The notes under the pieces are model-generated. The model did no database searches. It was given only the letters and a program-made list of their open reading frames with translations, and had not been told where the DNA came from. 64,000 nucleotides of DNA from Salinigranum rubrum (GTDB taxonomy: Archaea; Halobacteriota; Halobacteria; Halobacteriales; Haloferacaceae): contig NZ_CP026309.1 in NCBI RefSeq assembly GCF_002906575.1, positions 682,001 through 746,000 of the forward strand. The letters are read 5' to 3'. Below are positions 3,026-20,767 of the stretch, piece by piece. Every line of letters starts with the position of its first letter. Within the stretch, counting starts at the first letter, position 1. Position numbers and translations under genes: made by a program.

Positions 3026-3913
3026 CTACTCCTCGGGGAGGTACTCCTCCTCCCATTCGAGCACCTGGGGGACGCCGGAGAAGTGGTCGTAACTCTCGAC
3101 GGGGACGCCCTCGAACGCCTCCTTCGTCTCGGTCCACGCGTCCATCCCCTCCGCTCGGAGCTGTCCGAACCGTTCGAAGAGCGCCGTGATCGTCGGGAGC
3201 GTCGAGAGCCGCGGGAAGATGACGACGTCGTAGCCGAGTTCGTCGGCGCGCTCGATGGAGACGACCGGCGACCCGCCGCTACAGTTGTACAGCAGGGGAG
3301 CGTCGACCTCTCTGGCGACCCGTTCGAGTTCGTCGACGTCCTTCGCGCCCTGCACGAAGGCGACGTCCGCGCCCGCCTCGCAGTAGGCGTTCACCCGGTC
3401 GATAGCGTCGTCGAGTGTCCCCTCGGGCGCGCCGCGCGCGTCGGTCCGCGCGATGAGCACCATCTCCGACCCGCACTCGTCGCGGATGTCGGCGGCGGCG
3501 CGGAACTTCCCGACAGCCTCCTCCTTCGAGACGACGCGCTTCCCCTCGACGAACCCACAGCGCTTCGGGAACACCTGGTCTTCGATGTGGATGGCTCCGA
3601 CGCCCGCCGCGGCGAACTCTCTGACCGTCCTGGTGACGTTGACCGCGTTGCCGAAGCCGTTGTCCGCGTCGGAGATGATCGGCACGTCGACCGCCTGCTG
3701 GATGTACTTCGCGTTCTCGACCATCTCGGTGAGGGTGAGCACCCCCACGTCCGGCTGTCCGACCTTCGCGAGCGAGGTGCCGTTGCCCGTCATGGCGACG
3801 AGGTCGAACCCCACCTCCTCGGCGACGCGAGCCGAGAGGGGGTCGTGAACGCCGGGCGAGACGACGATTCCGTCCGATTCGAGCAGCGCTCTGAGTCTGC
3901 GACCGTAGCTCAT
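3026..3913 (-). CDS. Isocitrate lyase/PEP mutase family protein (copy 1)
   Basis: TIM-barrel carbon-carbon lyase of the isocitrate lyase/PEP mutase superfamily (295 aa from MSYGRRLRAL). Visible features are the N-terminal GVHDPLSARVAEEVGFD, the metal-binding SDADNGFGN near residue 81, and the active-site loop EDQVFPKRCGF with Cys119. The Cys loop places it with the true lyases (methylisocitrate lyase, 2,3-dimethylmalate lyase) rather than with PEP mutase, but the residue after CG is Phe121 where isocitrate lyases have His. The likely reaction is retro-aldol cleavage of a 2-hydroxy dicarboxylate. Two paralogues lie at 19880 and 22785. A second upstream ATG (3931) is possible; the chosen start matches the N-terminus of the 22785 copy. 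Confidence 0.85.
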   Translation of the reverse strand: MSYGRRLRALLESDGIVVSPGVHDPLSARVAEEVGFDLVAMTGNGTSLAKVGQPDVGVLTLTEMVENAKYIQQAVDVPIISDADNGFGNAVNVTRTVREFAAAGVGAIHIEDQVFPKRCGFVEGKRVVSKEEAVGKFRAAADIRDECGSEMVLIARTDARGAPEGTLDDAIDRVNAYCEAGADVAFVQGAKDVDELERVAREVDAPLLYNCSGGSPVVSIERADELGYDVVIFPRLSTLPTITALFERFGQLRAEGMDAWTETKEAFEGVPVESYDHFSGVPQVLEWEEEYLPEE

Positions 3914-3934
3914 ACCCGAGTTCCGCGGCACGTC

Positions 3935-6230: not shown

Positions 6231-7832
6231 TCACCGCTCGACGAGGCTCTCCTCCCATTCGAGGTAGCGGCGCATCTCCGCGCTGCCCTGTCCGTAGGGC
6301 TTCCGTTCGACCGCTCGGGGTGGCCGTACCATCCCCTCCTCGCCCTCGGCGACCGCCAACCCCGTCTCGCGCCACGACTCGACGCCGCCGCGCAGCGCCG
6401 CGACCTCAAGGTCCGGAAACGCGACCCCCACCGCGGCGGCCGCGTACGTCGAACACGTCCCGTCACGGCAGGTCAACACGAGCGGCTCGCTCGCGTCGAC
6501 CGTCCCCGCCGCGAGGTCGGCTTCGAGGTCGTATCGGGAGGTCCACCGCGCGCCGGGGACGTGTGCCTCGACGAACGCGTCCGGGTCGTCGACGTCGAGG
6601 ACGGTCGGTCCCCCGTCTTCGAGCCGTGTCGACAGCGCCCGCGCGTCGACGAAGTCGACGGTCGCTCGGACGCTGTCGGCGTCAGGCGGTTCGGGTTCGT
6701 CGACGCCCTCGGCGACGGGTCGGCCCTCGTCGGTCCACGCGGTGACGCCCCCGTCGAGCACCGAGACGTGCGGGAACCCCATCGACGCGAGCCAGTACGC
6801 CGTGATGCCCGCCCGGACGTGCGTCTCCGAGACGAGGACGATTTCGGCGGTTCGCACGGCCAGATGGGCCTCCGCCGTCTGGAGCAGTTGCCCGCCCGGG
6901 ACCCACGTCGCCCCCGGCACGTGCTCGCGTTCGTACTCGGCTTCGCGCCGGACGTCGACGAGGTACACCGACTGGTCGGCGGCGACCGACGCCCGCAACT
7001 CGTCCACTTCGGTCGGCGTCAGCCGTGGGACGTCGGCCTCGACCAGTAGCGACGCGACCCGCTCGCGCAGGCGGTCGACGCGCGTCGGGTCGGGCGCGAC
7101 GTCCGCCGGCCGTCCGCTTCCGTCCGCGAGGTCGCGCCCCGCCAACTGCCAGCCCATCGTTCCGTTCTCGAGTTCGTACACGTTCGGGACGCCGAGGGCG
7201 TCCAGCGTCGCCGTCCCGATGATGCTCCGCGTCCGACCCGCACAGTGGACGACGACCGGCGTCTCTTCGGTCTCCCGGAGCGCCTCCGCGTACAGCGCGA
7301 GGTCGACCCCCTCGACGTTGACCGACCCGGGCACCGTCCCCCAGCGGCGGTACTCCTCGGGGTTCCGCACGTCGACGACGAGCACGCTCTCCTCGGACTG
7401 CATCTCGGCCAGTTCTGACGGCGTGAGGCGGGGCAGGTCCCGGTCGGCGTCGACCTCCTCGCCGAACCGCTTGCTCGTGTAGTTGAGCGCCGTCGCGTGG
7501 ACGTGCCCGACCGACTCGACGAGTTCGAAGCCCGCCGCAGCCCAGGCGTCGACCCCGCCGTCGAGAAACGAGACGTCCTCGTACCCGAGGTCGGCGAGCC
7601 ACCGCGCGTCCCGCGCGGCGCGGTCGCCACACCGGTCACACAGGACGACCGGCGTGGCCGGGTTCGGAACGAGCGTCGGGAGTCGGCGTTCGAGGTCGTG
7701 TCTCGGGACGAACGTGGATTCGAGGACGTGCCCCTGCACGTAGTCGAGCGGGTCGCGCACGTCTATGACGGCGAGGGGGTCGCCGCTGTCGAGTGCTGTT
7801 CGGACCGCCTGCGGAGAGAGTGCGGACGTCAT
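6231..7832 (-). CDS. Four-domain rhodanese (sulfurtransferase-like) protein
   Basis: A 533-aa protein made of four consecutive rhodanese homology domains, roughly residues 1-110, 135-245, 270-375 and 390-495. The predicted active-site loops differ: Cys65 in LCDRCGDR, Cys197 in HCAGRTRS, Ser335 in VSETHVRA (no Cys), and Cys455 in TCRDGTCS. Rhodaneses transfer sulfane sulfur through a loop Cys, so three domains could be active and the third is probably structural or regulatory. A linker of about 25 residues with a KRFGEEVDADRDLP stretch separates domains 1 and 2. It is divergent from the MFS gene at 7993. A role in sulfur relay or thiosulfate handling is family knowledge; the substrate is unknown. 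Confidence 0.88.
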   Translation of the reverse strand: MTSALSPQAVRTALDSGDPLAVIDVRDPLDYVQGHVLESTFVPRHDLERRLPTLVPNPATPVVLCDRCGDRAARDARWLADLGYEDVSFLDGGVDAWAAAGFELVESVGHVHATALNYTSKRFGEEVDADRDLPRLTPSELAEMQSEESVLVVDVRNPEEYRRWGTVPGSVNVEGVDLALYAEALRETEETPVVVHCAGRTRSIIGTATLDALGVPNVYELENGTMGWQLAGRDLADGSGRPADVAPDPTRVDRLRERVASLLVEADVPRLTPTEVDELRASVAADQSVYLVDVRREAEYEREHVPGATWVPGGQLLQTAEAHLAVRTAEIVLVSETHVRAGITAYWLASMGFPHVSVLDGGVTAWTDEGRPVAEGVDEPEPPDADSVRATVDFVDARALSTRLEDGGPTVLDVDDPDAFVEAHVPGARWTSRYDLEADLAAGTVDASEPLVLTCRDGTCSTYAAAAVGVAFPDLEVAALRGGVESWRETGLAVAEGEEGMVRPPRAVERKPYGQGSAEMRRYLEWEESLVER

Positions 7833-9318: not shown

Positions 9319-10575
9319 ATGGGTCAGACGATGGCAGAGGCACTTTTGGCCAACGCCTCCGGAACGGAACAGGTGTCGCCGGGCGACCACGTCGTCTGCG
9401 AAATCGACCTCGCGATGACGCAGGACATCCACACGCCGGGCGTCGTCCACCTCCTCGAAGAGATGGGCGTCTCGGAACTGCACGACGCATCGCGCCTCGT
9501 CGTGGTACTGGACCACGTCGGGCCGTCACACACCGTCGGTAACGCCGACGAGAAGGCGGGAATCAGGCAGTTCGTCCGCGACCACCCGGACGCGCACTTC
9601 TACGACGTCGGGACCGGCATCAGCCACGAGGTCCTCCCCGAGAAGGGCCACGTCCGCCCGGGCGAACTCATCGTCGGGACGGACTCGCACACGGTCAGTC
9701 ACGGGGCGTTCGGCGCGGCCAGCACGGGCATCGGCGACACGGACATGGCCTACGCGCTCGCGACCGGACAGGGCTGGTTCCGCGTCCCCGAGACGGTCGA
9801 GTTCTTCGTCGAGGGCTCTTTCCCCGAGTTCGTCTCCGCGAAGGACTTCCTCCTGCACATCGCCGGCGAGTTCGGGACCGACGTCGCCCGGTACCGGGCG
9901 ATCGAGTTCCGGGGACCGACGGTCGAGTCGCTGTCGCTCGACGACCGTATCACGCTGACGAACATGTCGATCGAACTCGGGGCGAAGTTCGGCTTCACCC
10001 CCGTCGACGACGTCGTCACCGACTACGTCGAGGCGCGCACCGACGAACCGTTCGAGGTAGTCAACGCCGACGACGACGCCGACTACGCCGAGCGCTACGA
10101 GGTAGACGTCTCGGACCTCGAACCGCAGGTCGCGGTCCCCCACGACGTCGGGGACGTTCATCCCGTCTCCGAGGTCGATCCGGTCGAGGTCGATCAGGTG
10201 TTCCTCGGGTCGTGTACGAACGGGAAGTTCGACGACCTCGCCGCCGCCGCGGCGATTCTCGACGGTCACGAGGTCGCGCCGATGACGCGGTTCATCGTGA
10301 CGCCGGCGTCGAGAGAGATATACGGTCGGGCCGAGCGCGCGGGACTGATTCGCGTCTTCAACGACGCCGGCGCGGTCGTCACGAACTCGACGTGCGGTGC
10401 CTGTCCCGGTCTCGGTCTGGGCGTGCTCGGCGAGGGCGAGGTCTGTCTGGCCGCACAGAACCGCAACTTCCGCGGTCGAATGGGACACAACGACTCGGAG
10501 ATCTACCTTTCGAGCCCCGAGACGGCCGCTGCGACGGCAATCACGGGTCGGATCACCGACCCGAGGGAGGTGTGA
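9319..10575 (+). CDS. Aconitase-family hydro-lyase, large subunit (LeuC/DmdA-like)
   Basis: Large subunit of a two-subunit aconitase-superfamily hydro-lyase (418 aa, the length of archaeal-type LeuC/HacA). The [4Fe-4S] cluster ligands are visible as Cys299 in GSCTNGK and Cys359/Cys362 in STCGACPG; DHVGPSHTVGNA and VGTDSHTVSHGAFG are substrate-domain motifs. It is followed after 2 bp by the matching small subunit. Family members include isopropylmalate isomerase, homoaconitase and 2,3-dimethylmalate dehydratase (DmdAB of nicotinate fermentation). No other leucine genes are here, whereas PrpF- and lyase-family genes are, so a catabolic dehydratase is more likely than leucine synthesis. The specificity assignment is inference. 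Confidence 0.87.
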   Translation: MGQTMAEALLANASGTEQVSPGDHVVCEIDLAMTQDIHTPGVVHLLEEMGVSELHDASRLVVVLDHVGPSHTVGNADEKAGIRQFVRDHPDAHFYDVGTGISHEVLPEKGHVRPGELIVGTDSHTVSHGAFGAASTGIGDTDMAYALATGQGWFRVPETVEFFVEGSFPEFVSAKDFLLHIAGEFGTDVARYRAIEFRGPTVESLSLDDRITLTNMSIELGAKFGFTPVDDVVTDYVEARTDEPFEVVNADDDADYAERYEVDVSDLEPQVAVPHDVGDVHPVSEVDPVEVDQVFLGSCTNGKFDDLAAAAAILDGHEVAPMTRFIVTPASREIYGRAERAGLIRVFNDAGAVVTNSTCGACPGLGLGVLGEGEVCLAAQNRNFRGRMGHNDSEIYLSSPETAAATAITGRITDPREV

Positions 10576-10577
10576 CG

Positions 10578-11081
10578 ATGGCGTTCGAGGGGACCGCCCA
10601 CACGTTCGGCGACGACGTCAACACCGACTACATCACGCCGAGCGACTACTTCGGCCTCCCCTACGAGGAGATCGCCACCCACCTCTTCGAGCCGATCGAC
10701 CCGGACTTCTCCGCGCGGTTCGAGCCCGGAGACGTCGTCGTCGCCGGCGAGAACTTCGGGTCGGGGTCGAGTCGGGAGACGGCCCCGAAGGCGCTGGCGG
10801 TCGCCGGCGTGAGCGTCGTCGTCGCGGAGTCGTTCGCGCGGCTCTTCTACCGCAACGGCATCGCAATCGGGCTTCCGGTCGTCACCTGTCCCGGCGTGAC
10901 GGACGCCGTCTCGCAGGGCGACACCGTCAGCGTCGATCTGGGGGGACAGACGCTCACGAACCTGACGACGGGCGAGACCCTGTCGACCGAACCGATGCCG
11001 GCGGAGATCCGATCCATCTTCGACGCCGGGGGGCTGCTCGCACACTACGAACAGCACCCCGACGGCCTCACGCTCGACTAG
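10578..11081 (+). CDS. Aconitase-family hydro-lyase, small subunit (LeuD/DmdB-like)
   Basis: Swivel-domain subunit of 167 aa, beginning 2 bp after the large-subunit stop and so presumably translated with it. It shows the domain-4 signature GENFGSGSSRETAPKAL near residue 58, and DDVNTDYITPSDYFGLP at the N-terminus, which corresponds to the substrate-specificity loop of LeuD/HacB. It closes over the iron-sulfur active site of the 9319 product. The YFGLP sequence in the specificity loop may help distinguish it from isopropylmalate isomerase, but I cannot assign the substrate from it. Confidence 0.87.
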   Translation: MAFEGTAHTFGDDVNTDYITPSDYFGLPYEEIATHLFEPIDPDFSARFEPGDVVVAGENFGSGSSRETAPKALAVAGVSVVVAESFARLFYRNGIAIGLPVVTCPGVTDAVSQGDTVSVDLGGQTLTNLTTGETLSTEPMPAEIRSIFDAGGLLAHYEQHPDGLTLD

Positions 11082-11109: not shown

Positions 11110-12459
11110 TCACAACCCTCCGGCGAGCGTCTCGACGGTGTCGTACTCGTCGAGCGCGTACGCCCGCTCGAAGAGCGCGTCCCGCTCGCCCTCGGGCACC
11201 GCCTCCCGCGTGAGGTCGCGGAACTTTCGCGCGAGTTCGTCGGCCGAGAGCGGCGCTTCGGCGGCTCCCTTCGGGTACGCCACCTCCGATTCGAGCCGTC
11301 GACCGTCGGTCGTCTCGACGACGACCCGCGCGGGGCGCGTCTCGGGGTAGCGAGCGTCCATCTCGTCGGTCGCGCTCACCGTCGTCCGCGCGAGCAGCGC
11401 GGACACGTCCCTCCGCGCGGCGTGTTTCGGGTCGAACCGTTCGAGCGTGGCCTCGCCCGTCACGAGCGCGATTGCCACGCCGTACGGGAGGCTCATCTGC
11501 GCGTCGAGGAGGTTTTCGACCGCCGTGTTGTCGTGGAACGACGCGGTGCGGTACGTCTGGACCTCGATGCGCTCGACGTCGCCCGGTTCGAGGCCGTCGG
11601 CTCGGAGTTCTAACGTCGCCTGGATCGGGCCGTGGATGTGCCGACAGCAGGGGTACGGCTTGAGGTAGCTCTCGGTGACCGCGAACGGCTCCCCGAGGGA
11701 GTCGAACGGCGAGAGGTCGTACTCGTCGGCGAACGCCCTGGCGAAGCCGTCGTCGCCCTCGATGACGGTGTCCGGTCCGTCGAACCCCTCCGCGGCGAGT
11801 TCGGCGGCCAGCACGCCGGCCATCGCCGCCCGCCCCGGGTGGAAGCGCTTCGACATCGACCCCTTCTCCATGAACTCGAAGAGCCCGCCCGCCTGGGTTC
11901 CCGCCAGTCCCAGCGCGTGGGCGCTCTTCGTCTCGTCGAGTCCGAGGACGCGACTCGCCGCCGCACCGGCCCCGATACATCCCGTGGTTCCCGTCGCGTG
12001 GAAGCCGCGCTCGCGGTGGGAGGTCTGTACCGCCACCGCGGTCCGGACCATCGCCTCGTAGCCGGCGACGATGGCCGTCGTCACCTCCTCGCCCGACGCT
12101 CCGTGCTTCTCACCGAGCGCGAGCGCGGCGGGGATGACGGCACTCCCGGGGTGGGCGGACGCGCCGCGGTGGCCGTCGTCGACGTCGAGCGCGTGCGCCG
12201 TGGTTCCGTTCGCGAGCGCCGCGAGGTGCGCGAGCGACCGCCCCCCTCCGACGACGGTGGCCTCGTCGCCGCCGAGCGAGTCGACGTACCGAAGCATCGC
12301 TTCCCCCGCGTCGGTCGACAACCCGGCGTACGACGCTCCGAGCGTGTCGACGAACGCCTTCCTGGTCGCTTCGACCGTCGACTCGTCGAGGCTGTCGTAC
12401 GTGAGCGTCGCGCAGAACGCGGCGAGTCGGGTCGTCTCCGCAGAACGGTCTCCAGTCAT
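11110..12459 (-). CDS. MmgE/PrpD family protein (copy 2)
   Basis: A 449-aa MmgE/PrpD protein with the expected helical N-terminal domain (LDVDDGHRGASAHPGSAV near residue 94; SHRERGFHATGTTGCIGAG near residue 150) and C-terminal lid domain. It is the most diverged of the three PrpD copies and carries the SKRFHPGRAAMAGVLAA segment usual in the family, whereas the other two have WKGL(S/A) sequences there. It is the last gene of a minus-strand group with the DUF6282-like hydrolase (44 bp upstream), the uncharacterised 13343 protein and the UGSC-family gene. Dehydratase, epimerase or decarboxylase chemistry is possible for the family. Confidence 0.86.
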   Translation of the reverse strand: MTGDRSAETTRLAAFCATLTYDSLDESTVEATRKAFVDTLGASYAGLSTDAGEAMLRYVDSLGGDEATVVGGGRSLAHLAALANGTTAHALDVDDGHRGASAHPGSAVIPAALALGEKHGASGEEVTTAIVAGYEAMVRTAVAVQTSHRERGFHATGTTGCIGAGAAASRVLGLDETKSAHALGLAGTQAGGLFEFMEKGSMSKRFHPGRAAMAGVLAAELAAEGFDGPDTVIEGDDGFARAFADEYDLSPFDSLGEPFAVTESYLKPYPCCRHIHGPIQATLELRADGLEPGDVERIEVQTYRTASFHDNTAVENLLDAQMSLPYGVAIALVTGEATLERFDPKHAARRDVSALLARTTVSATDEMDARYPETRPARVVVETTDGRRLESEVAYPKGAAEAPLSADELARKFRDLTREAVPEGERDALFERAYALDEYDTVETLAGGL

Positions 12460-12503: not shown

Positions 12504-13346
12504 TCAGCGTGGCTCGCCGAGCAACTCGCGGGGGACGGTCTTCGCCATCGTCTCGACCGCCGACGCGGAGACACCGTGTGCTCTCAGCCCGTCGACGAAC
12601 GAGGCGTACGCGTCCGGCGGCGACTGGTTCGACGGCTGGCCGTGGTCGGTCGAGAGGACGCACCGGTCGACGCCGATGTCGGCGATACCCTCGGCCATCG
12701 CGGCGAGCGTCGTGTCCCCCTTGACGACCGGGAGGTAGCACTTCTCGACGTACGCGCCGCGTTCGGCCAGTCGGACCTGGTCGTCGAGGGAGAGGCCCAT
12801 GAACGCCGAGTCCGGGTGGGTGACGAGGTAGTCGACGCCGGTGCCTCGCTCCTCGATAGCGTCGAGGACGGCGTCGGTCTCCGGCGGGCTGACGTGGCCG
12901 TTGCCGAGCACGAGTCGCCGGTCGGCGTCGTCGAGGACGTCGAGGATTTCCAGGAGTTCCGGCTTGGGTGCGCCCTCCTCGTCGGTCACCGTCAGCGTCT
13001 GCCCCGAGAAGGGGTAGGGGCGGTCGGTCTCGAAGTGCGCGGCGCTGAACGTCGGGAGCCAGACGACGCTCGCGCCGGTCTCGACCGCCAGTTCCACCGC
13101 CGAGGGGTTGAGCCCGCCGACGAACGTGTTGAGCGTGAGCGAGGAGTACACGTCGACGCCGGGGACGGCCGCGCGCCCCAGTCGGACGACCTCGAAGGTG
13201 TTGCCGAAGTGGCTCTTCAGGACGATACCGCCGAGCGGCGACTGCTCGACCCGTTCGAGCAACGCCACGATGTCGTGCTTGCGCTCCCACAGCGACGGTG
13301 CGGCGTGGACGTGCACGTCGATGGCTCCCTCGGGAATCGAACTCAT
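12504..13346 (-). CDS. Amidohydrolase-like protein (DUF6282-type)
   Basis: A 280-aa TIM-barrel metal-dependent hydrolase resembling the DUF6282 group. The N-terminal metal motif is DVHVHAAPS; further candidate ligands are the His in LKSHFGN, GNGHVSPPE and VTHPDSAF, and the Asp/His in LSTDHGQPSN. The start ATG overlaps the stop of the upstream gene (13343) by 4 bp, so the two are translationally coupled. Its place in the UGSC operon suggests hydrolysis of an intermediate in that unknown pathway. The substrate is unknown. A longer in-frame start exists upstream but would lie entirely inside the neighbouring gene. Confidence 0.78.
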   Translation of the reverse strand: MSSIPEGAIDVHVHAAPSLWERKHDIVALLERVEQSPLGGIVLKSHFGNTFEVVRLGRAAVPGVDVYSSLTLNTFVGGLNPSAVELAVETGASVVWLPTFSAAHFETDRPYPFSGQTLTVTDEEGAPKPELLEILDVLDDADRRLVLGNGHVSPPETDAVLDAIEERGTGVDYLVTHPDSAFMGLSLDDQVRLAERGAYVEKCYLPVVKGDTTLAAMAEGIADIGVDRCVLSTDHGQPSNQSPPDAYASFVDGLRAHGVSASAVETMAKTVPRELLGEPR

Positions 13347-14404
13347 TCGACTGCCCCCTCCACGGCCTTCGTGACGGAGCGGGTCTCCCCGAACGAGTGC
13401 AACGCCATCGAGTGCTTGCCCGCGCCGCCGGCGACCAGAACGACGACGTCCTCGGGCCGCTCGACGAGCGGAATTCGCGCGTCCCCGTCCCGTTCGAGGT
13501 GGAACCGCCGGTGGAGCGTGTAGTTGTCGTAGATGCCCGCCGCGTGGAGGTCGTCGACCGCGTTCCGCGCCTGGTCGTACAGGTACCACTGGACGTCCTC
13601 GACCGTCCAGCCGTCCTCCGCGACGGTGGCGGCGTGTTCCGGCCCCAGGACGAGCGCGATTTCGCCCTTCGAGTGGTGGGTGTTGTTGTTGCCGACGGTG
13701 GCGAAGACGTCCGCGGCGACGCCGAGAATCCCCGCCGCGTCGCCGTGGACGTGGTCGTTTATCTCGTGCGGAGCCTCCACGCCCATCACGGTCACCGCGC
13801 TCTCCTCGGCGTCGAACCCCCGGCGGACGTGTAGTGGTTCCCACGGCGAGTTCCGCTCGTTCTCCGCGATGCAGAAGCTGTACTTGCCCGGGTGGCCGTG
13901 CGTCGCGCGGTCCATCTCGCCGGGCGTCCCGCCGCCCGCGTTGACCAGCAGGAGGCGAATCGCGCGGCCGATGGTCGCGTTCGCCCGCCAGCCCTGCCCG
14001 AACACGTTGTAGCCGTAGTTCAGGTGGAGTTCGTCGACGACCGGCCCGTTGACGACGAGCAGCGGCGCGACGGGGTGGGTGGTCGCGTTGACGCCGTAGA
14101 GATTGAACGGCTCCTCGGTGAGGGCCTCGACCGCCGTCTCGACGACGGGCATGTACGAGGGTTTACAGCCGGCCATCACCGCGTTGATGGCGACCGTCTC
14201 GACCGTCGCCTCGCCGTATCTCGGCGGGATGACGCCCAGCGCCTCGTCGGGGGTTCGGTGGCTCCCGTCGAGCATCCGTTCGACGCGTTCCGGCGTCGGC
14301 GGGACGACGGGGAGGCCGTCGGTGAATCCGTTGCGATACAGGTGTTCCGTGACGGACTCGACGTCGCCCTCGACGACGTCGAGCGTCTCTGCGGTGAACT
14401 CCAT
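13343..14404 (-). CDS. Uncharacterised protein, partner of the UGSC-family protein
   Basis: A 353-aa soluble protein whose function I do not recognise. Conserved-looking features are YRNGFTDGLPVVPPTPERV near the N-terminus, VMAGCKPSYMPVVETAV (with a Cys) near residue 80, ATTHPVAPLLVVNGPV near residue 112, and NAGGGTPGEMDRATHGHPGKYSFC near residue 155. It is separated by only 2 bp from the UGSC gene and overlaps the next gene by 4 bp, so it is almost certainly co-translated with both. Genes of this type tend to sit beside UGSC-family genes, which suggests a two-protein enzyme; that is recollection of context, not something the sequence proves. Confidence 0.7.
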   Translation of the reverse strand: MEFTAETLDVVEGDVESVTEHLYRNGFTDGLPVVPPTPERVERMLDGSHRTPDEALGVIPPRYGEATVETVAINAVMAGCKPSYMPVVETAVEALTEEPFNLYGVNATTHPVAPLLVVNGPVVDELHLNYGYNVFGQGWRANATIGRAIRLLLVNAGGGTPGEMDRATHGHPGKYSFCIAENERNSPWEPLHVRRGFDAEESAVTVMGVEAPHEINDHVHGDAAGILGVAADVFATVGNNNTHHSKGEIALVLGPEHAATVAEDGWTVEDVQWYLYDQARNAVDDLHAAGIYDNYTLHRRFHLERDGDARIPLVERPEDVVVLVAGGAGKHSMALHSFGETRSVTKAVEGAVE

Positions 14405-14406
14405 TC

Positions 14407-15039
14407 TCAGATCGGGCACCGCAGCCCCGACGCGTCGACCTCCTCGTCGGCGTCGAGGTATCGGTTCTCGTACTCGGCTTCGAGCGTTTCGTGGTCGCGG
14501 GTCAACACCGCGACGACCTCCGAGACGACCGCTCTCGCCCGCTCGCGCACCTCTTTTTCGGGAACGCCGCCCATCGGATGCGGGACCGTGACGAGCGGGA
14601 GACCCGGCAGGCCGAGCGCCCGGGCCTCGGCCTGCCCGAGGGTGACGAACTCGTCGCTGTTGACCGTCGCCGTCGGCGTCCCCCGGCGTTCGAGGTCGAC
14701 GCTGTCGTAGACGCACCACGAGGTGCACGACCCGCAGTCGCCGTAGGCGTTGACCACCGCGTCACAGCGGTCGTGCAACTGGGTCGCGAGCGAGTCGGCC
14801 GGGATGGGGCTCTTGTCCTTGCGCCGGGAGACGGTCGTCGCGACGCCGTACTCCGCGACGAGGAGTCGCCCGATCTCGTCGAGCAGCACGTCCGCGTTGG
14901 CTTTCGAGTTGTCGAGGAGGCCGACGGTCGTCCCCTCCAGTGTGTCGAGTCGGTCGGCGATCCGGTCGCGGGTGACGTTCACCCGTCCCCGGGGGTCCAG
15001 TACGACGGTCTCCGATGAGGCTGTCTCGTTCACGCCCAT
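14407..15039 (-). CDS. UGSC-family protein (cysteine form)
   Basis: A 210-aa protein with the motif GDCGSCTSWCVYDS at residues 100-113 (Cys102, Cys105, Cys109). It corresponds to the UGSC family, named because some bacterial members have selenocysteine in a U-G-S-C motif; here the position is Cys102. The function is unknown; the paired Cys/Sec suggests a thiol redox or cofactor-binding site. GLPLVTVPHPMGGVPEKEV follows near residue 158. It is the first gene of a tight minus-strand operon with 13343 and 12504. I chose MGVNETASSE rather than the ATG 27 bp upstream because the extra residues look unlike coding sequence. Confidence 0.75.
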   Translation of the reverse strand: MGVNETASSETVVLDPRGRVNVTRDRIADRLDTLEGTTVGLLDNSKANADVLLDEIGRLLVAEYGVATTVSRRKDKSPIPADSLATQLHDRCDAVVNAYGDCGSCTSWCVYDSVDLERRGTPTATVNSDEFVTLGQAEARALGLPGLPLVTVPHPMGGVPEKEVRERARAVVSEVVAVLTRDHETLEAEYENRYLDADEEVDASGLRCPI

Positions 15040-15167: not shown

Positions 15168-16538
15168 ATGAGTTCACTCAGCCACGAACTGGCGGCGCAC
15201 GTCGACCGAGTCTCGTTCGACGACTTCGACGAGGCGGTACTCGACATCACCAGCGACCTGCTGCTCGACACGGTCGGCTGTAGCATCGGCGCGTTCACCA
15301 GCCCCCCGTCGAAGGCGCTCCGCGCGGAGTACGGCGACCACCGCGGGACGGCAGGCGCAACCGTCGTCGGCACGGACGTCGACGTCCCCGTCGAGACCGC
15401 GGGACTGATCAACGGGACGATGGCCCGGTATCTCGACTACAACGACTGCTACATGGCCACCGGCGGGGCGTGTCACCCGAGCGACCACATCATGCCGCTC
15501 CTGTCGGTCGCTCAGAGCGAGGGGGCGACCGGGCGTGACCTCGCCGAAGCCATCGTCGTCGCGTACGAGGTCGAGTGCTCGGGGCTCGACCAGGCGACCG
15601 TCCGCGAGCGTGGGTTCGACTACGCCGCGTGGGGACCCTATTCGAGCGCGGCCGCGGTCGGGAAACTGATGGGGCTGTCGCGCGACGAACTCGTCGACGC
15701 GTTCGGTATCGCGGGCGCGTCGAACGCCCCGCTGTACATCACCCGCCGTGGCGACGTCTCGATGTGGAAGGGGCTCGCCCACCCGTACGTCACGCACAAC
15801 GCCATCCAGGCCTGTCAGATGGCCCGGGCCGGCATCACCGGCCCGACCGAGGTGTTCGAGGGCGACTACGGCTTTCAGGCGGTCGTCTCCGACAACGACC
15901 TCGACTTCAGCGAACGGCCCACCGGCGACGAGTACCGCATCCTCGAAACCGGCATCAAGTACTTCGCCACCGGCTACTACATCCACTCGCCGCTGACGGG
16001 GGCGCTCGAACTCGTCGACGAGCACGACATCGCGCCCGACGACATCGACGCGATACACGTCGACATCTTCGAGACGGCGGCGAAGGCGCTCGCCACCCCG
16101 GAGAAGTGGGGGACGGACCAGACCCGCGAGACGGCGGACCACAGCATCCCCTACAGCGTTGCCGTCGGCATCGTCGACGGCGAGGTGACGCCTCGACAGT
16201 TCGAACCGGACCGCCTCCGCGGCCCCGACGTCCACGCGGTGATGGAGAAGATCACCGTCTCCGAAGACCCGGACCTGACCGAGTACCGCCGGGACCACCC
16301 CCGACACATCCCCTCGGTGACGACCATCACCGTCGACGGGACCGAGTACCGGTCGCGGGTCGACGCGCCGCTCGGTCACGCGGAGCGCCCCATGAGCGAC
16401 GAGCAACTCGACGGCAAGTTCCGGGCGCTCTGTGACGGTCTCCTCGCCGACGAACAGATGGAGCGCGTGATGGCGCTCTCCGCGGACCTCCCCGACCTCG
16501 ATACGGTCGACCCGCTCCTCGACGCGCTGGTCGTCTGA
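15168..16538 (+). CDS. MmgE/PrpD family protein (copy 3)
   Basis: A 456-aa MmgE/PrpD protein, the same length as copy 1 and similar along its whole course: LDYNDCYMATGGACHPSDHIMP near residue 92, YAAWGPYSSAAAVGKLMGL, ITRRGDVSMWKGLAHPYVTHNA, and EKWGTDQTRETADHSIPYSVA in the C-terminal half. The in-frame ATG 33 bp upstream is less likely, since the conserved family start is MSSLSHELAAHV. It is divergent from the UGSC operon and heads the plus-strand series of acyl-CoA genes. Whether it dehydrates, decarboxylates or epimerises a dicarboxylate cannot be decided here. Confidence 0.87.
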   Translation: MSSLSHELAAHVDRVSFDDFDEAVLDITSDLLLDTVGCSIGAFTSPPSKALRAEYGDHRGTAGATVVGTDVDVPVETAGLINGTMARYLDYNDCYMATGGACHPSDHIMPLLSVAQSEGATGRDLAEAIVVAYEVECSGLDQATVRERGFDYAAWGPYSSAAAVGKLMGLSRDELVDAFGIAGASNAPLYITRRGDVSMWKGLAHPYVTHNAIQACQMARAGITGPTEVFEGDYGFQAVVSDNDLDFSERPTGDEYRILETGIKYFATGYYIHSPLTGALELVDEHDIAPDDIDAIHVDIFETAAKALATPEKWGTDQTRETADHSIPYSVAVGIVDGEVTPRQFEPDRLRGPDVHAVMEKITVSEDPDLTEYRRDHPRHIPSVTTITVDGTEYRSRVDAPLGHAERPMSDEQLDGKFRALCDGLLADEQMERVMALSADLPDLDTVDPLLDALVV

Positions 16539-19879: not shown

Positions 19880-20767
19880 TCAGGCCGCGTCCGAGTCGTC
19901 GGTCGCGTACCGCTGTTCGCGCTCGGTCACGGCGTCGAGTCCGGTGAGTTCGTTTCTCTCGCTCCACGAGAGCAGTCGGTCCATCACTCCCTCCTGCGTT
20001 CCCGTCGTCAGAATCTCACGGTAGACGTCCTGCAGCGCCTTCGCGGCGGCCTTGAACCCGGTCGCCGGGTAGAGGACGACGTCGTACCCGAACGCCTCGA
20101 ACTCCTCGGCGGCGTACAGCGGCGTCTTCCCGCCCTCGGTCATGTTCGCGAGGAGCGGCACCTCGCCGCCGACCGTCTCCGCCACGCGCCGGAGTTCCGC
20201 CTCCGAGCGGAGCGCCTCGACGAACAGGACGTCCGCACCCGCGTCGGCGTACGCGTACCCCCGCTCGATGGCGGCGTCGAGACCGGCCGTCGCTCGGGCG
20301 TCGGTGCGGGCGATGACGACGAAGTCGTCGTCGGTTCGGGCGTCGGTCGCAGCGCGGAGTTTCTGCTCCATCTCCTCGACCGGAACGACGTCCGTCCCCT
20401 CGAAGTGGCCGCACCGCTTGGGGAACGTCTGGTCCTCGATGTGGACCCCGGCGACGCCCGCGCGCTCGTACGACTCGACCGTCCGGGCGACGTTGAGGGG
20501 GTTGCCGTACCCCGTGTCGGCGTCACAGAACACCGGGACGTCGACGGCTTCGACCATCGAGCGCGCCCGCTCGACCATCTCGGTCATCGTCGTCAGTCCG
20601 ACGTCCGGGCCGCCGTGGACGGACGTCGACACCGAGGAGCCGCTCATGTAGACGACTTCGCCGCCGGCCTGTTCGGCCACCGTCGCCGACAGGGCGTCGT
20701 AGCCACCCAGCGCGGGGAGGACCTCGGGTCTCTCGATCAACTGCCGGAATCGGGTCGTCGATTTCAT
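19880..20767 (-). CDS. Isocitrate lyase/PEP mutase family protein (copy 2)
   Basis: A 295-aa lyase of the isocitrate lyase/PEP mutase superfamily. The metal site is CDADTGYGNPLNVARTV (residues 81-97) and the active-site loop is EDQTFPKRCGHFEGTD with Cys119 and His121, the complete lyase loop as in methylisocitrate lyase. The closing segment NMTEGGKTP near residue 206 is also typical of methylisocitrate lyases. Of the three copies this is the best candidate for a working methylisocitrate or 2,3-dimethylmalate lyase, yielding pyruvate plus succinate or propionate respectively. It is divergent from the PrpF-family gene at 20943. Confidence 0.88.
   Translation of the reverse strand: MKSTTRFRQLIERPEVLPALGGYDALSATVAEQAGGEVVYMSGSSVSTSVHGGPDVGLTTMTEMVERARSMVEAVDVPVFCDADTGYGNPLNVARTVESYERAGVAGVHIEDQTFPKRCGHFEGTDVVPVEEMEQKLRAATDARTDDDFVVIARTDARATAGLDAAIERGYAYADAGADVLFVEALRSEAELRRVAETVGGEVPLLANMTEGGKTPLYAAEEFEAFGYDVVLYPATGFKAAAKALQDVYREILTTGTQEGVMDRLLSWSERNELTGLDAVTEREQRYATDDSDAA

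Follow-up and report, generated by a model that had tools for sequence, protein, structure and literature searches.

A 2008 selenoproteome survey describes the family as probably thioredoxin-like and of uncharacterised function, and it also reports a fusion of UGSC to a second protein called 'Unknown_1' (PMC2398784). A 2026 review places UGSC among the thioredoxin-like families of uncharacterised function. Within the superfamily of the GrdB and PrdB selenoproteins, a GrdB-like fluoroacetate (far) operon (NF053623 FarE; PMC10838667) sets a precedent for substrate breadth. No statement of a link between UGSC and GrdB or PrdB was found in the literature consulted. The link, which is the main clue to UGSC, was also left out of the initial annotation of the locus described here.

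The window analysed is a stretch of 64,000 nucleotides of haloarchaeal DNA (65% GC) from Salinigranum rubrum. Three of its genes, all on the minus strand, are separated first by a 2-bp gap and then by a 4-bp overlap, ATGA, in which the stop of the partner gene overlaps the ATG of the DUF6282 gene; this packing, and the PrpD gene that follows it, had been noted in the initial annotation and are confirmed by the coordinates. The features are as follows.

14407..15039, minus strand: UGSC-family protein with CGSC (Cys form), proposed to be the subunit with the catalytic thiol; 210 aa, ATG start; PF24696 and NF041046; profile homology to GrdB/PrdB
14734..14736, minus strand: Cys102 codon; nearly every bacterial relative has Sec (TGA) here; invariant in the alignment, aligned with the GrdB Sec by hhalign
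14725..14727, minus strand: Cys105 codon; within the UxxC/CxxC pair the thiol proposed to resolve; more than 90% conserved, in line with the Cys of the GrdB UxxC
13343..14404, minus strand: partner subunit, uncharacterised, 353 aa; co-occurs with UGSC, adjacent or fused
14165..14167, minus strand: codon of partner Cys80, motif VMAGCxP; invariant in 62 sequences
12504..13346, minus strand: DUF6282 protein, putative distant amidohydrolase-like metal hydrolase, lineage-specific third gene; PF19799 at 2e-56; motifs HVH, THPD and STDHG
11110..12459, minus strand: MmgE/PrpD gene; PF03972 at 3.4e-65; 44-bp gap after DUF6282; co-directional locally, conservation with the unit absent

Another MmgE/PrpD gene (15168-16538) begins divergently, upstream of UGSC. 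The spacing and order of the locus are far beyond chance, since UGSC and its partner adjoin each other in three phyla and the order UGSC, partner, DUF6282 recurs in five other haloarchaeal genomes.

The 210-aa protein is a full member of the UGSC family in its Cys form, matching PF24696 at 7.7e-60 (202 bits against a cut-off of 25) and NF041046 at 8.5e-44 (149 bits against a cut-off of 125), while direct sequence comparison of UGSC with solved structures gave no meaningful match. Its motif reads GDCGSCTSWC, CGSC being residues 102-105, and the placing of Cys102 at the selenocysteine position was borne out by the single in-frame TGA found at this position in nearly all bacterial copies. A tRNA-Sec above the cut-off was present in 8/8 bacterial genomes tested and in 0/7 haloarchaeal genomes. 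There are 7-8 UGSC copies per genome in Chloroflexota and up to 30 in one betaproteobacterial bin. The haloarchaeal forms appear in a quick tree at two places among the Sec-encoding bacterial forms, support for more than one entry not being decisive. At one locus (L135:4994-11860) the genes run selA, selB, a TrxR-like gene, tRNA-Sec and a UGSC-partner fusion, and on another contig (G298:C185) tRNA-Sec accompanies a UGSC fusion, so that the selenocysteine machinery may itself travel together with UGSC. Several public bins titled 'Bordetella parapertussis' (L006, L011, L012, L013, L017, L019, L028) encode UGSC selenoproteins; they group with environmental betaproteobacterial bins, and their species titles look wrong.

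Among 292 Halobacteria genomes, 16 encode UGSC and precisely these 16 encode the partner, with no genome holding either alone. When one genome per species was scanned, 33 UGSC loci came to light in haloarchaea, betaproteobacteria and Chloroflexota, in a survey biased to genomes findable by a peptide-pattern search, and the partner adjoins UGSC in 32 of them, the remaining locus ending at a contig edge. With paralogues added, a same-strand partner lies within 400 nt of UGSC in 114/118 copies, in either order, and about 20 copies are natural fusions of the two in one frame with one TGA; the 'Unknown_1' of the 2008 survey may be this partner. AlphaFold2 models the window partner at pLDDT 93.3 and pTM 0.92 and a natural fusion at pLDDT 94.4 and pTM 0.93, values that for the fusion predict a single defined packing of its two domains. 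The distances of the two subunits correlate in a mirror-tree comparison at r 0.91 over all loci and at 0.84, 0.92 and 0.36 inside single genomes, where for the last value 34 of 2000 shuffles were equally high; because of this weakness in one of three genomes, the mirror-tree counts as supporting evidence only.

A two-subunit enzyme made up of UGSC and the 353-aa protein is strongly supported, their physical association being a prediction from genomes, fusions and model. The initial annotation had proposed a two-subunit enzyme plus downstream hydrolase, and the first half of this stands on co-occurrence, adjacency, fusions and duplication as a unit, but the hydrolase is limited to the haloarchaeal branch of the window. 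Likewise, the survey of the neighbours of UGSC homologues that it had suggested (neighbour genes called by a simple codon-composition script, cluster families named partly by eye) returned the partner as a near-universal neighbour, but neither DUF6282 nor PrpD as generally linked. In six loci (L054-L056, L060, L063 and L065), two differing partner paralogues flank one UGSC, an arrangement that suggests a three-part or alternative-partner complex.

The partner itself stands apart from described families. The window protein matched no family in Pfam or NCBIfam, 61 relatives gave no significant match to Pfam, and sequence and fold searches of the partner against solved structures had no significant match either. 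Kinship to GrdE or PrdA is ruled out by an hhalign value of 0.2% against a GrdE-type alignment and by the Pfam families matched by the 62 partners, among which no GrdE/PrdA type occurs, so that the way in which glycine reductase activates its substrate does not carry over. Class I fumarase was considered and set aside, the best fold match (7xky, E 0.014, TM 0.26) being too weak. The partner has the invariant Cys80 in VMAGCxP, together with the motifs DGLP, NGP and RAN.

The UGSC protein of the window on its own reaches the GrdB model TIGR01917 with E 0.03 and 13.2 bits, below the threshold (cut-off 602), whereas 38 of 68 UGSC members match this model, the best at 1.5e-6; 17 match GrdF, 16 TIGR01918, 15 the PrdB model TIGR04483 (best 5e-5) and 9 GrdH. 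Members scanned singly score about 13-22 bits against the GrdB cut-off of 602, and the matched model positions, consistently about 316-412 in the C-terminal part, hold the UxxC region. Sec-encoding GrdB- and PrdB-like genes for comparison were drawn from the Chloroflexota order; as loci L158-L164 of the GrdB family showed no clear GrdB-type CxxCxxC ORF, L167-L174 were used for the profiles. Aligned with hhalign against these GrdB/PrdB-like proteins, UGSC gave 95.0% and 95.7% (E 4e-8 and 9e-9), with Cys102 and Cys105 on the Sec and Cys of GrdB and the CGSC and UGSC/UxxC motifs in line. Conversely, the GrdB model run over 59 genomes of the Chloroflexota order retrieves UGSC loci: all 7 of the 7 weak matches checked had the partner near. 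UGSC scores below the curated GrdB/PrdB family cut-off, and its 210 aa fall short of the full GrdB architecture of about 430 aa with an N-terminal domain. On the profile evidence, then, UGSC is remotely homologous to the GrdB/PrdB selenoprotein catalytic domain, the UxxC pairs of both falling into line.

This bears on the thioredoxin-like label that the family has carried. If the fold remark of 2008 is followed, UGSC would be a thioredoxin-fold thiol-disulfide oxidoreductase or electron carrier that keeps Cys80 of the partner reduced, and both the UxxC motif and the invariance of Cys80 are in keeping with this. However, the UGSC domain of the fusion model resembles flavodoxin-like folds in Foldseek (azoreductase 3u7i at E 5e-4, WrbA, MsuE), beside other alpha/beta folds and with modest TM scores, and no thioredoxin is among the best 50 matches, which leaves the thioredoxin fold unsupported for UGSC. 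The homology, too, is to GrdB and not to thioredoxin, and a general carrier would hardly be expected as up to 30 divergent paralogues in a genome, every one paired with a partner of its own; we consider a carrier role quite improbable.

The third gene is optional. DUF6282 matches PF19799 with 191 bits against a cut-off of 26.8 and Amidohydro_1 (PF01979) at E 0.0027 with 17.4 bits, below the cut-off of 25, the HxH/H/D metal-ligand motifs being seen by eye; no relative was found among solved structures. It is present in 12 of the 292 Halobacteria genomes, 6 of the 16 with UGSC and 6 of the 276 without (hypergeometric P 7.5e-6, kinship ignored), and this distribution rules it out as an obligatory third member. 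Only in the branch of the window (L002-L005, L053 and copy L052) does it come straight after the pair, and the bacterial UGSC loci surveyed showed none, so that DUF6282 is a lineage-specific addition to the pair. At some betaproteobacterial loci an Amidohydro_2 gene lies close by in its place, which means that a hydrolase-type helper recurs while its family differs.

The initial annotation had also read the surrounding PrpD and CoA genes as clues to the substrate class, and these two fare differently. Within 7 kb of the bacterial UGSC copies there are 7 PrpD-bearing loci against 7.3 expected from PrpD density, one betaproteobacterial bin alone carrying 99 PrpD genes, and only one other haloarchaeal UGSC locus has PrpD nearby; PrpD is thus at background frequency and falls away as a clue. 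In the genome of the window, 7 of the 10 MmgE/PrpD genes lie in one 28-kb island (C1:670032-697899) that covers the window start and contributes the genes at 23-1405, 11110-12459 and 15168-16538. A dedicated methylcitrate-like operon of UGSC, partner, DUF6282 and PrpD might be read from the four co-directional genes and from the PrpD, PrpF, aconitase-type and ICL/PEP-mutase genes around them, but this clustering in the 670-698 kb island makes proximity to UGSC uninformative, PrpD is absent beside the three genes in the other genomes of the branch with inspectable flanks, and near bacterial copies it is background. We regard such an operon as highly improbable.

The CoA genes are the better clue, as class III CoA-transferases recur in haloarchaea. 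The neighbours in the window (CoA-transferase, acyl-CoA dehydrogenase, enoyl-CoA hydratase, aconitase-type hydratase and PEP-mutase/ICL-type lyases) fit a catabolic island for branched di- or tricarboxylates. They include aconitase-type large and small subunits, LeuC/LeuD-like, at 9319-11081 and PEP-mutase/ICL-type lyases at 3029-3931 and 19883-20767, which together may resemble a set of dimethylmaleate hydratase and dimethylmalate lyase. The island also holds, between MFS and SDR genes, a 533-aa protein with about four rhodanese domains (6231-7832). Other loci of the branch have CoA-transferases, enoyl-CoA hydratases and PEP-mutase/ICL-type lyases, with TctA in one (L003), and genes for TctC-type receptors, a cluster named by eye, lie near 70 of 125 UGSC copies, in bacteria. 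Together with the LeuC/LeuD pairs, these neighbours support a small carboxylate as substrate, and it is from them that carboxylate binding by the pair is inferred.

A possible electron donor was sought by running a TrxR model over the genomes. Of the ten UGSC loci in one haloarchaeal branch (L058-L067), 8 have a TrxR-like gene with CxxC no more than 3.5 kb away, at about four such genes per genome; the chance of this is about 5e-16 if the loci are independent, kinship being ignored. Genes for GMC oxidoreductase, aldehyde dehydrogenase and AMP-ligase are also recurrent in this branch. At L067, a thioredoxin-domain gene is directly upstream of UGSC and an aconitase-type LeuC/LeuD pair, comparable to that in the window, directly downstream. 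Near the UGSC locus of the window the model found no TrxR-like gene. This last result, like the catabolic neighbours, would suit redox-neutral chemistry (that of a lyase, hydratase or transferase) catalysed mainly by the partner, with Cys102 or Sec serving as nucleophile or base, and the partner's best fold matches, non-significant though they are, are class I fumarases (7xky, as above). We nevertheless think this unlikely: the CxxC/UxxC pair is homologous to that of reductases, selenocysteine is normally reserved for redox or nucleophilic chemistry, and the TrxR-like gene stands by most loci of one branch.

The pairing, the GrdB/PrdB homology and the TrxR and carboxylate context lead us to propose that the pair is a reductase of two subunits, probably fed by thioredoxin. 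It would act through a thiol, or in bacteria a selenol, in the manner of GrdB/PrdB but with a pyruvoyl-free partner, and cleave a bond in a small carboxylate; we put the chances of this proposal as evenly balanced. The partner, with Cys80 and its DGLP, NGP and RAN motifs, would bind and activate a small carboxylic acid; Cys102, or Sec in bacteria, would then attack and reductively cleave a bond, by analogy with GrdB, PrdB and the far operon probably that from carbon to N, O, S or halogen beside the carboxylate. As the common UxxC pair suggests, Cys105 would resolve the intermediate by forming a Cys-Cys or Sec-Cys bond. Electrons would probably be supplied by thioredoxin, with thioredoxin reductase re-reducing the pair as the genomes of one haloarchaeal branch indicate; in Salinigranum rubrum the housekeeping thioredoxin system would have to serve. 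DUF6282 may act as a lineage-specific hydrolase on a pathway intermediate.

UGSC, so far an orphan, thus takes its place in a defined enzyme of two subunits for which nucleophile, resolving thiol and electron donor are predicted. The relationship to GrdB/PrdB makes the reaction of the pair testable, and the haloarchaeal Cys forms are practical test objects because they can be produced without selenium machinery; Natrialba asiatica is one haloarchaeon with the pair that can be cultivated. If the pair is indeed a reductase, a chemistry of strict anaerobes would extend to bacteria with tens of paralogues, which possibly use it to break hard-to-degrade dissolved carboxylates.

Compared with GrdB, GrdF and GrdH (TIGR01917, TIGR01918, PF07355), UGSC has a homologous C-terminal catalytic domain with the Sec or Cys of UxxC aligned; bacterial UGSC reads UGSCT where a GrdB-like protein (L168) reads UGSCTRGG, and an xPHPxG-type C-terminal motif is common to both. 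It is without the N-terminal half of about 200 aa, it has a different partner where GrdB has the pyruvoyl subunit GrdE, no GrdA or GrdC of glycine reductase was recognised at the UGSC loci inspected and its distribution, unlike that of GrdB, takes in haloarchaea and betaproteobacteria. D-proline reductase PrdB (TIGR04483) is closer in build, a single catalytic domain of similar size with UxxC, but works with the pyruvoyl protein PrdA and the electron carrier PrdC, neither of which was recognised at UGSC loci. In the far operon, the GrdB-like protein is suggested to serve carbon-halogen cleavage of a small carboxylate (PMC10838667), and its partner is GrdE-like, whereas the UGSC partner is not. 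We tentatively suggest, at somewhat less than an even chance, that UGSC and its partner form a third branch of the GrdB/PrdB superfamily, pyruvoyl-free, with an undescribed partner fold and fed by thioredoxin rather than GrdA or PrdC, whose dozens of copies per bacterial genome would reductively open different small carboxylates and which haloarchaea would have acquired with a change from Sec to Cys.
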